Positions 48,956 through 51,874 of a stretch of DNA of 64,000 nucleotides are shown here, piece by piece. The DNA is taken from the NCBI GenBank assembly GCA_011525805.1, contig WYBR01000042.1, positions 1-64,000 on the forward strand, read 5' to 3'. Each line of letters begins with the position of its first letter. Position 1 is the first letter of the stretch. The notes below the pieces were generated by a model. It saw only the letters and a program-made list of their open reading frames with translations. It did not search any database and was not told the origin of the DNA. The stretch comes from Vicinamibacteraceae bacterium (GTDB taxonomy: Bacteria > Planctomycetota > Phycisphaerae > Phycisphaerales > UBA5793). The translations under genes and the position numbers were made by a program.

Positions 48956-51874
48956 TCAGTTACCTTCCGTGCGACTAATCGCACCAACGGCGTTAGTTCC
49001 ATCGCGATTGCGCTGTCGAACATCTGATCGGTGAAATGGTAAAGAAATTGACCTGAACAACGACGATCCTGGTGCCGGACTAAAATTGTGATTCGTCTGA
49101 TCCTGGTACTGCGGATCACCTGTCGTTGCATCCAGTCCGTATACATCTGCTCCGAAGCTGGCCCAATCTTCGTAGTGGTTGTGCCGAAAATCATGTGATG
49201 CTAGAGACTCCGTGCGTGTATCCTCGAACTTCTGGAAAACGTTCCCAACCACAGACAGATTCTTTGTGAAGAACGTCGTGGGCTGCGCACCATCTTCAAC
49301 TATCCAGAACCCAGCATCCGCAAATGTGTTTCCCCAGATTATAGCGTGGTCGATATTCATGGCGATCTGTCCCGCAAACTGACCAGCCGCCACATAGTTC
49401 ACGACTGCCAAGTCCTTGATGATATTGTCGGGGTTGCCTGCCGGAGCAGCGCGAATGAATAACAGTTGTCCAGTGTTGTTCTCGGAAGCGTCAAGATTGT
49501 ATTGAATAATGTTTTCCTTGCCGTCCAAGATTTGATGCAGATCACGGTGGCCGATATTGCCGAAAACACCGAAATTGCGAATGGTGCTATTTACAACCAT
49601 GCGAACATTCAGCAAGGCGTCGAGACCTATATCTGTTACGGTAACGTTGCGCAAGAGAGTCCAGTCTTGGATCGGACGGCTTGCATTCCGAACAGTAGTG
49701 TCTGTAACAAACACGCCGCCAGTGAATTCAAGCGGCTTCACAAATTTGTAATTGCCATCACCTGTTGGACTATCGCCAACGAGTTCGCACTGGTCAATCC
49801 AGAGGCGCGATGCCCCAAGCGCAGGGCGCCCTGTGAATATCGTGGCCGCATGTTGAATTGTCAGATTGTGGAGATGTACACTTTCAGTACGGAGTCCATT
49901 ATCATCTGAATGTGAGGTGATTGCCACATCGGTTTTTGTCAATCCAGGCGCGGGGCGAATGGTAATCCAGCGTTTATCGGATACAGGCTGAGGGTAGTGG
50001 TACGTTCCATAGTTGTAATTACCTGCCAGCAAGAGAATCGTCGCACCGTTTACCGTTCCATCACCATTAGGTATACTTTCAATGAATCGCATCGCGCCGA
50101 AGAGAGTCCGCAATGGTTCCTCTACAGTCCCCTTTCCAGTCGTGTCATCCCCTGTCAGGGAAACGTAGACGCTGGGCCGAGCCAATAGGCCCCTGGCGTT
50201 TGCAGCCAACATAAGTGATGTCTCACCAACATCGACATTTGCTGGATCGTCTACCGATCCGCCCAACACCCGCGGCTCTCCAATTGTTGGCCAGGCGATG
50301 GCTCGGACTTCGACGGGGCCGTCTTCGAAGAGGCTGGCGCGGAGGGTTGCGGTGTACTCCCAGACGTTGGTTCTGGGGTTGAGTTTCATTTCGGTGACCG
50401 GGGTCCAGGGGCCGCCGTCTGCAGAGAACTCGACGCGGTCGATGCCGTTGATGTGGAAGGCGACGACGCCGATGTGGAAGTCGTCGGTGAAGTCCTGGAA
50501 GGGGACGACGTCCCAGCGGGCGATGGCCTTGGCGTCGTAGCCGGGCATGGAGGGGTCGCCAACGGGATCGGGTTGCGGGGTCGGGCCGGAGAAGCCGGAG
50601 CCGGGCTGGAGAATGGGGAATTCGGGCGGGGCGACGCCGGATCCGGAACCGCCACCACCGGAGCCGCCTGATCCGCCCGAGCCGCCGCTGCCGCCCGAGC
50701 CTCCGCTGCCGCCTGAGCCGCCGCTGCCGCCTGAGCCGCCGGAGCCGCCGGAGCCGCCGGAGCCTCCGGAGCCTCCGCCTCCTCCTCCTCCTCCACCCGA
50801 GCCACCACCGCCGATGACAAACGAGCCGCCGCCGCCTCCTCCGCCGCTGGCGCGGCGGGCGCGGCCGATGGGGGTGTTGTCGCCGGTGTGGAACTTGAAA
50901 TGCAGGGCGCCGGGGGCGGCGCTGGAACTGGCTCGGCTATCGGTTTCGGAGGCGAGCAGGGCGAGGGAGTCCTCATCGCCTTCCGACCAGAACTCGGCGT
51001 CGGTGGGGGAGGCGAAAGGGTCACCCTCCATCGCCGACTGGTCCTCGAACACCAGGCCGAACTGCGAGCCCGGCTCCGTCGACGCAGCGGTCTCATCGCC
51101 CGATTCGGCCCCGTCGGCCGCGTCCGCATCGAGCGGATCGAGCGGTTCATCGGCGCTGCGGGGGGCGGAGAGGGCCAGGCGCCACGATCCGTTGGCGCGG
51201 TAGAGGATCGGTCGCGAGCCGCGCAGGGCGAGGGAGTTGGGCAGGCCGTCGCGCAGGGCGATGCGCTCGGTCACGGTTCCGCCGGAGAGGACGATGCTCT
51301 TGGCGGCGACGAAGGCGTCGAGTCGATCGATGACGCCGCCGTAGCGCTGATTGAGGAATGCGGCGCCCTCGCCGCGGCGCGATTCGGCGGGCAATCCGGC
51401 GACGCTCAGACCCACCACGTTGTTGGCGCGAGCAGCGTCGAGGAGCGCTTCGAGAAAGCGCGCCATTGTGTCTGCGTATGCGGTGCGAGTTCGGCTCGCT
51501 TCATCCGGGCCGACGGTGGCGAGGAGCGAGTTGAAGCGGTCGTCGTCGATGGTGAACGCGGCCCCGGTGAGTCGAATGGCGACGAGCCGCTCCGGCTCAG
51601 CGCTTCGCGCCCGCGCGAGGCGTGCGAGCAGGTCGTTGCCGGCGGCTTCGAGGTCGGCCACGCGGCGATCCAGGACGTGGGCCGGGTCGAGGTTGAGGTC
51701 GAGGAAGACGGGAGCCTTGGCCGCCTTCATGCGCAGTGCGTCGCCGGCCGGGGGCGTGGCCGACAGGCCGGGCGCAATGAGCATCGCCAGGGTAAGCAGG
51801 AGCACTCCTCCGGCTGCGAAGGCGCGACGCTGGGGGAGACAAGCCAGACCATGAACGATGGATGGGCGGTGCAT
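48956..51874 (-). CDS. Secreted right-handed beta-helix protein with long Gly-Gly-Ser linker, mosaic gene
   Basis: 972 aa from the ATG at 51874 (GAGGAG nine bases upstream); the frame to 52057 is an unsupported extension. A signal peptide (RRAFAAGGVLLLTLAMLIAPG) is followed by a roughly 300-residue domain (FLDLNLDPAHVLDRRVADLE, ... TVTERIALRDGLPNSL), an acidic stretch, a glycine/serine low-complexity linker, an Ig-like segment (VEFSADGGPWTPVTEMKLN) and a C-terminal right-handed parallel beta-helix (SVYVSLTGDDTTGKGTVEEP, ... IIWGNTFADAGFWIVEDGAQ). Such helices bind or cleave polysaccharide. The beta-helix part, 48956 to about 50270, is visibly richer in A/T than the GC-rich first part, with a sharp change. 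It is the first large gene after the antiterminator. Confidence 0.82.
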   Translation of the reverse strand: MHRPSIVHGLACLPQRRAFAAGGVLLLTLAMLIAPGLSATPPAGDALRMKAAKAPVFLDLNLDPAHVLDRRVADLEAAGNDLLARLARARSAEPERLVAIRLTGAAFTIDDDRFNSLLATVGPDEASRTRTAYADTMARFLEALLDAARANNVVGLSVAGLPAESRRGEGAAFLNQRYGGVIDRLDAFVAAKSIVLSGGTVTERIALRDGLPNSLALRGSRPILYRANGSWRLALSAPRSADEPLDPLDADAADGAESGDETAASTEPGSQFGLVFEDQSAMEGDPFASPTDAEFWSEGDEDSLALLASETDSRASSSAAPGALHFKFHTGDNTPIGRARRASGGGGGGGSFVIGGGGSGGGGGGGGGSGGSGGSGGSGGSGGSGGSGGSGGSGGSGGSGGSGGSGGGGSGSGVAPPEFPILQPGSGFSGPTPQPDPVGDPSMPGYDAKAIARWDVVPFQDFTDDFHIGVVAFHINGIDRVEFSADGGPWTPVTEMKLNPRTNVWEYTATLRASLFEDGPVEVRAIAWPTIGEPRVLGGSVDDPANVDVGETSLMLAANARGLLARPSVYVSLTGDDTTGKGTVEEPLRTLFGAMRFIESIPNGDGTVNGATILLLAGNYNYGTYHYPQPVSDKRWITIRPAPGLTKTDVAITSHSDDNGLRTESVHLHNLTIQHAATIFTGRPALGASRLWIDQCELVGDSPTGDGNYKFVKPLEFTGGVFVTDTTVRNASRPIQDWTLLRNVTVTDIGLDALLNVRMVVNSTIRNFGVFGNIGHRDLHQILDGKENIIQYNLDASENNTGQLLFIRAAPAGNPDNIIKDLAVVNYVAAGQFAGQIAMNIDHAIIWGNTFADAGFWIVEDGAQPTTFFTKNLSVVGNVFQKFEDTRTESLASHDFRHNHYEDWASFGADVYGLDATTGDPQYQDQTNHNFSPAPGSSLFRSISLPFHRSDVRQRNRDGTNAVGAISRTEGN
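50635..50815 (-). repeat. Low-complexity (Gly-Gly-Ser)n coding repeat
   Basis: Imperfect tandem GGN-GGN-AGC type codons (read on the minus strand) encode about 60 residues of GGSGGSGG and poly-glycine, forming a flexible linker between the two halves of the mosaic protein. Its repetitive, GC-rich nature makes it prone to length change. The plus-strand ORF opposite it (proline-rich) is a shadow. Confidence 0.85.

Follow-up and report, generated by a model that had tools for sequence, protein, structure and literature searches.

Organization of the locus

The window, by which we mean the whole 64,000-nucleotide stretch of DNA analyzed here, carries an exosortase-type exopolysaccharide (EPS) locus whose second gene is the focus of this study. 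This gene, which we call the hinge gene, is a single intact open reading frame (ORF) encoding 972 aa, and its ribosome-binding site, as read from the sequence, is GAGGAG, 9 nt 5' of the ATG. The features of the locus, listed from its first gene onward, are:

52298-52909, minus strand: NusG-type antiterminator (UpxY/RfaH-like), first gene of the locus; 68-79% identical in congeners
52135-52151, minus strand: conserved element GACGGGGGCGAAGCCCG with hairpin GGGC-GAA-GCCC, between the antiterminator and the hinge gene
48956-51874, minus strand: hinge gene; secreted protein with signal peptide, N-module, Gly-Ser linker, Ig-like domain, and right-handed beta-helix
51761-51874, minus strand: signal peptide, aa 1-38, ...AAGGVLLLTLAMLIAPGLSA, read from sequence
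50894-51760, minus strand: N-module, aa 39-327, the constant part; 51-58% identity in congeners G001, G003, and G004
50642-50854, minus strand: Gly/Ser linker, aa 341-411
50617-50677, minus strand: joint 1, codons ~400-420, where congener homology stops and other-family type-B homology starts
50261-50641, minus strand: Ig-like (FN3/Big-like) domain of the C-module, aa 412-538; GC3 0.88
50254-50332, minus strand: composition step, candidate joint 2, best at 50311
48959-50215, minus strand: right-handed parallel beta-helix, aa 554-972; GC3 0.50
35308-48869, minus strand: variable EPS cassette, with no orthologous set in congeners
47511-48869, minus strand: polysaccharide pyruvyl transferase (cassette)
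46078-47514, minus strand: Wzx-type flippase (cassette; Polysacc_synt_3, 1e-41)
45350-46081, minus strand: acetyltransferase (cassette)
44034-45500, minus strand: FrhB-like (cassette)
40981-42678, minus strand: Wzy-like (cassette; Wzy_C below cut-off, 27.8 vs 31.7)
35308-36431, minus strand: Alg14/Alg13-like pair (cassette)
within 35308-48869, minus strand: deacetylase-like, GNAT/Fem-like, and glycosyltransferase genes (cassette)
33901-35307, minus strand: NDP-sugar dehydrogenase, start of the conserved right flank; 82-84% identical in G003 and G001
32028-32900, minus strand: exosortase (Exosortase_EpsH)
31335-32021, minus strand: EpsI-like DUF3485 protein
29062-31338, minus strand: chain-length/tyrosine-kinase protein (right flank)
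27590-29065, minus strand: polyprenyl glycosylphosphotransferase, the initiating transferase (right flank; Bac_transf, 3e-58)
23243-27418, minus strand: TPR protein (right flank)

The antiterminator matches the NusG N-terminal domain with 42.9 bits (cut-off 22.2); its KOW match is weak and under the cut-off, and its scores fall under the NCBIfam cut-offs for both UpxY (84.4 of 100) and RfaH (56.5 of 144.5). The hairpin element is found at this position in 11 of the 20 loci that have an antiterminator, its coordinates elsewhere being L021:10029, L022:6185, L023:10944, L034:10491, L116:17151, L117:10359, L167:3151, L168:2545, L150:8347, and L152:3287. It has a chance expectation of 0.01 in the window and is unique in its own genome, and as a loose pattern it matched once in 718 kb of control loci. 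We regard it as a candidate ops-like site for antiterminator loading; the E. coli ops sequence, GGCGGTAGC, has no match in the window.

Just upstream of the antiterminator, on the plus strand, a DUF3987 primase-helicase-like gene and a tyrosine integrase gene (55183-59201) stand in a place that is taken in congeners by dTDP-glucose genes (rfbB/rfbA-like by reading). This segment has the appearance of a mobile element that integrated next to the EPS locus. Further away, also on the plus strand, an ORF with repeats (15889-17637) has relatives near the EPS loci of G003 and G001 (38-40%), in another place.

Architecture of the hinge protein

Profile searches with the whole hinge protein returned no Pfam or NCBIfam match. 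Pfam Beta_helix and DUF1565 are among the profiles that the window protein does not match, and DUF1565 appears weakly (7e-4) in three of seven members of the type-B alignment; a sequence search against solved structures gave linker matches and low-value matches only. AlphaFold modeled the C-module (aa 412-972) confidently (pLDDT 88, pTM 0.91) as an Ig-like domain of ~126 residues followed by a right-handed beta-helix, and the best viral structure match of this model is annotated 'right handed beta helix region'. The N-module is predicted to be alpha/beta with low confidence (pLDDT 60), and its model may bear a weak, marginal likeness to TIM-barrel glycosidases. At the DNA level the linker contains an array of 18-bp tandem repeats (50658-50778), and Gly/Ser linkers also lie 5' of type-B modules in another family (G019, G011, and G015). 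Among type-B modules the Ig-like domain is highly conserved (mostly 60-76% identity), whereas the beta-helix shares only 25-35% identity with its relatives. The C-terminus of the protein, ...NAVGAISRTEGN, reads as having no PEP motif, transmembrane segment, or basic tail of the PEP-CTERM type.

A composition step inside the gene

The original prediction described a sharp composition break near 50270, with a 3' half richer in A/T and of different codon use and a GC-rich 5' half, and both GC and GC3 bear this out. GC is 0.68-0.79 across 50.4-51.9 kb and 0.47-0.53 across 49.0-50.2 kb, against a window mean of ~0.645. With the genes of the window as the reference for codon composition, GC3 (computed without Met and Trp codons) drops from 0.82 to 0.50, the best change point being codon 522, or position 50311. 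The support interval of two log units, 50254-50332, includes 50270, and the log-likelihood ratio is 56.9, compared with a maximum of 10.2 in 500 permutations. Because GC at third positions falls as well, the step is not due to amino-acid makeup alone. It is the AT-rich half that is the outlier: the GC-rich half is like the conserved neighboring genes (GC3 0.72-0.85), and its GC is raised further by the linker.

Instead of coinciding with the Gly-Ser linker, the step is found ~100 codons beyond it, where the AlphaFold model has the Ig-like domain giving way to the beta-helix. The difference in GC3 between these two parts is near zero (within 0.11) in 26 of 32 type-B genes and 0.18-0.38 in the other six, among which the window's is the largest. 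A fold-intrinsic cause is therefore unlikely, and we reject the idea that beta-helices use AT-rich codons by nature. An assembly chimera is likewise unlikely, given the intact ORF, the contiguity of Ig domain and helix in relatives, and the same pattern in independent genomes.

Two halves with different relatives

When 61 related genomes were scanned with the hinge protein, three congeners matched aa 3-416 only (55-58%), although their ORFs are equally long, while genomes of other families matched aa ~379-970 only (34-43%). The type-B C-module starts with a conserved stretch, FPILQPGSGF...DAKAIARWDVVP, which in otherwise different proteins lies directly 3' of Gly/Ser or other low-complexity linkers. 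Because congener homology ends and type-B homology starts there, we place the joint in the linker, at ~50617-50677, about 100 codons upstream of the composition step. At the same syntenic place, the congeners have unrelated beta-helix C-ends. The helix half alone, used as a query against the named genomes, found no relatives, and the Ig domain was needed as bait; in all well-covered relatives, the Ig domain upstream of the step is joined to type-B helices.

The proposal that the gene is a mosaic thus stands insofar as its halves have different relatives, while the position of the joint (the linker rather than 50270) and the extent of the incoming piece have to be revised. Separate phylogenies of the two halves give conflicting histories, in which the window's N-module goes with its congeners and its C-module is nearest to other families. 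The halves do not share the same closest relatives as one continuous full-length protein, and the mosaic reading survives. We found no close donor of the C-module. Its best relative is 41% identical; on that measure the exchange would not be recent, unless the true donor has yet to be sampled.

An exchangeable cassette

In congeners, the antiterminator and the N-module lie at the same place (46-79% identity), and nucleotide homology ends in the linker. Nothing between the linker and the NDP-sugar dehydrogenase is orthologous, the cassette genes having only remote, family-level matches (22-36%); homology resumes at the dehydrogenase, and the right flank at 23243-31338 is 48-76% identical. Both flanks are conserved and the middle replaced among the window, G003, and G001, and G004 contributes the left flank only, as its contig ends. 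A conserved left part, a replaced middle, and a conserved right flank together indicate an exchangeable cassette of ~15 kb whose left edge runs through the gene. Rather than being the incoming piece itself, as had been supposed, the beta-helix belongs to the left end of this cassette. Cassette genes also have lower GC3 than right-flank genes (Mann-Whitney p 0.004). Type-B C-modules head similar gene sets in other families, and in G179 five genes (pyruvyl transferase, Wzx, acetyltransferase, FrhB, and deacetylase) follow the window's order.

An exchange edge can be seen directly in the sister species G003 and G004, whose proteins share ~95% identity up to codon 556 but ~30% from there on. Codon 556 is inside the type-A C-module, so that the edge lies after the conserved C-module start and before the variable helix, and the genes after the hinge gene also differ. 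By sequence, this edge appears comparable to the border at the window's composition step. The step at 50311 is most naturally read as the trace of a further exchange, nested within the first, in which only the beta-helix was replaced and the conserved Ig domain in front of it was kept; separate Ig-domain and helix trees gave no proof of joint 2 in the window.

Beta-helices from different families show no link between their similarity and the set of genes downstream of them (rho 0.03), and close kin account for a Mantel correlation of 0.49. The pyruvyl transferase adjoins type B in 12 of 35 loci versus none of ~8 other loci, which is suggestive only.

Free combination of modules across the order

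We surveyed 301 genomes of the order (Phycisphaerales by named relatives), finding the N-module in 25, the type-B C-module in 41, and the type-A C-module in 50. An N-module and type B share one ORF in about seven cases, represented by full-length proteins in G049, G104, G196, G214, and G264 and truncated ones at L150 and L152. The remaining N-modules end in type-A helices, other helices, a glycosidase-like barrel (by reading), or other ends; the barrel replaces the helix behind a related N-module in G027. One other family has a group of four N-modules, united at 99%, in which every C-end is different and every gene follows an antiterminator.

The N-module tree unites the window and the three congeners, all of which have other C-ends, with 97% support. 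It rejects a clade of the window and G049 (p-AU 0.004) as well as one uniting every N-module that is fused to type B (p-AU 5e-6), and the type-B label makes seven changes on it, no fewer than shuffled labels do. In the C-module tree, G049 is nearest to the window (41% identity, 89% support), and a single N-fused clade is not rejected (p-AU 0.49) when one copy of the G196 tandem pair, G022, and G042 are left out. We discarded an apparent rejection of one clade for the N-fused C-modules (p 3e-50), which probably comes only from the splitting of the G196 pair by labels. Judged from the sequences, front and back modules combine freely across the 301 genomes.

The G196 pair, at about 3.8-8.4 kb of contig C35 (L117), consists of tandem type-B genes, one with an N-module and one without. 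Type-B Ig/beta-helix modules also occur on contigs labeled as other phyla: L149, L147, L151 (Sneathiella), L126, L128 (Hydrogenedentota), L131 (Sumerlaeota), and L125 (a Bdellovibrionales MAG). L149 is on a 684-kb contig, and some of the others are short MAG contigs that may be mis-binned.

Discussion

We think it probable that the hinge gene straddles the left edge of an exchangeable EPS cassette, with a resident front and a cassette-borne back whose function is proposed below. The antiterminator and the front of the secreted protein would be resident and inherited with the genus, while everything from the linker onward, including the Ig-like domain, the beta-helix, and the flippase, polymerase-like, and glycosyltransferase genes, would be replaced as a block. 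The left exchange edge would be the linker or the conserved domain, and the right edge the conserved NDP-sugar dehydrogenase, exosortase, and export genes. Replacement is seen by comparison of genomes, and recombination is the presumed mechanism. A second exchange, of the beta-helix alone at 50311, may have been superimposed, a comparable edge being directly seen only in G003 and G004. The N-module may keep the protein at one constant site of the export or surface apparatus, where the beta-helix could bind, cleave, or remodel the polymer of the cassette with which it comes.

As to what the C-module does, R742, H776-x-D778, N788, and H843 are near-invariant in 28 diverse beta-helix sequences, which suggests an active site, and type-A helices have H-x-Q-G and N-H motifs. 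The fold is common to phage tail-fibre and pectate-lyase-like proteins, and sequence searches matched no enzyme family to the C-module. From the conserved residues, the fold, the operon position, and the exchange together with polymer genes, we infer that the C-module most likely tailors, trims, or holds the polysaccharide made by its own cassette, and that the N-module is the part that stays fixed. Specificity of a C-module for one polymer is put forward as a hypothesis because the helix does not track downstream genes between families. It is possible, though doubtful, that the helix is instead non-enzymatic and follows the change of polymer as a passive anchor or adhesin for the polysaccharide, or as a phage-diversified part of the surface. 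The much greater divergence of the helix relative to the Ig domain, the likeness of its fold to tail fibres, and the missing enzyme family would all suit such a role, but the near-invariant residues and the type-A motifs look like active sites, and the G027 N-module carries a glycosidase-like barrel in place of a helix.

Two further explanations concern the exchange itself. Horizontal acquisition of a lone beta-helix module, fused at the composition step to a secretion module already resident, would account for the sharpness of the step and draws some support from the type-B modules on records labeled Sneathiella (the 684-kb contig), Hydrogenedentota, and Sumerlaeota; we consider it improbable, however, since the Ig domain before the step accompanies type-B helices, congener homology ends before that domain, and all downstream EPS genes change along with the C-module. 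That no exchange took place, the halves having always been one protein with helix codons made AT-rich by composition or folding, is the least credible explanation: several full-length proteins with N-module and type B exist and the C-module tree is compatible with a single N-fused clade, but most type-B genes lack the GC3 drop, the N-module tree rejects both the single-fusion grouping and the pairing with G049, and congeners carry unrelated C-ends at the same syntenic place.

Extending the reading of a resident front and a cassette-borne back, we tentatively suggest a general plug-in arrangement, which seems possible rather than likely: planctomycete EPS loci would start with an antiterminator, a conserved leader hairpin, and a resident secreted 'head' protein, to which carbohydrate-active ends would be fitted through linkers. 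These ends are of four or more kinds, namely two types of beta-helix, one other helix, and a glycosidase-like barrel. If so, the ends would swap with the cassette or nested within it, and polymer and tailoring domain would change as a unit.

Placing the exchange edge inside a protein linker would allow a polysaccharide locus to change its content yet keep a fixed secretion or anchoring part. The arrangement also offers a direct way of tying surface proteins to the polymers they act on, in organisms whose cell coats have received little study, and the conserved leader element provides an entry point for testing antiterminator loading.

Comparison with known systems

There are well-known precedents for polysaccharide loci that are exchanged between fixed flanks, among them the 'plug-and-play' exchange of the Klebsiella locus (PMC13043062; see also PMC5850285). 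Our locus shares with Klebsiella K loci and pneumococcal cps the conserved flanks, the variable polysaccharide genes between them, and block replacement. It differs in that the left edge falls inside one gene, so that a protein is half resident and half cassette, that exosortase and antiterminator genes frame the locus, and that the host is a planctomycete. Bacteroides capsule operons, headed by UpxY antiterminators (PMC7315117), similarly place a NusG-type antiterminator first, before the polysaccharide genes; here, however, the second gene encodes the secreted hinge protein, and the antiterminator is under the UpxY and RfaH cut-offs. The PEP-CTERM/exosortase EPS loci (PMC1569441) likewise combine an exosortase (EpsH) and an EpsI-like protein in an EPS locus. 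The hinge protein departs from them in reading as a protein without a PEP-CTERM tail.

The alginate epimerase AlgG and similar periplasmic polymer-modifying enzymes are right-handed beta-helices encoded in the operon of their polymer. By analogy, the hinge protein would be a beta-helix encoded in the operon of a polymer that it possibly modifies, although it has no sequence or family match to AlgG and its C-end is modular and exchanged. Proteins of polymorphic-toxin-like architecture have a constant N-terminal part and an exchangeable C-terminal part, with the break in a linker. The hinge protein may be compared with these in its constant front, swappable C-end, and linker break, but its C-ends are Ig/beta-helix or glycosidase-like and are encoded in an EPS operon. 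Among the open-licence papers searched, we found none describing a secreted protein that belongs partly to the flank and partly to the cassette and has several kinds of swapped carbohydrate-active ends. Exchangeable loci, antiterminator-headed operons, and exosortase EPS loci are the known elements, and the half-flank, half-cassette protein is what appears new against that literature.
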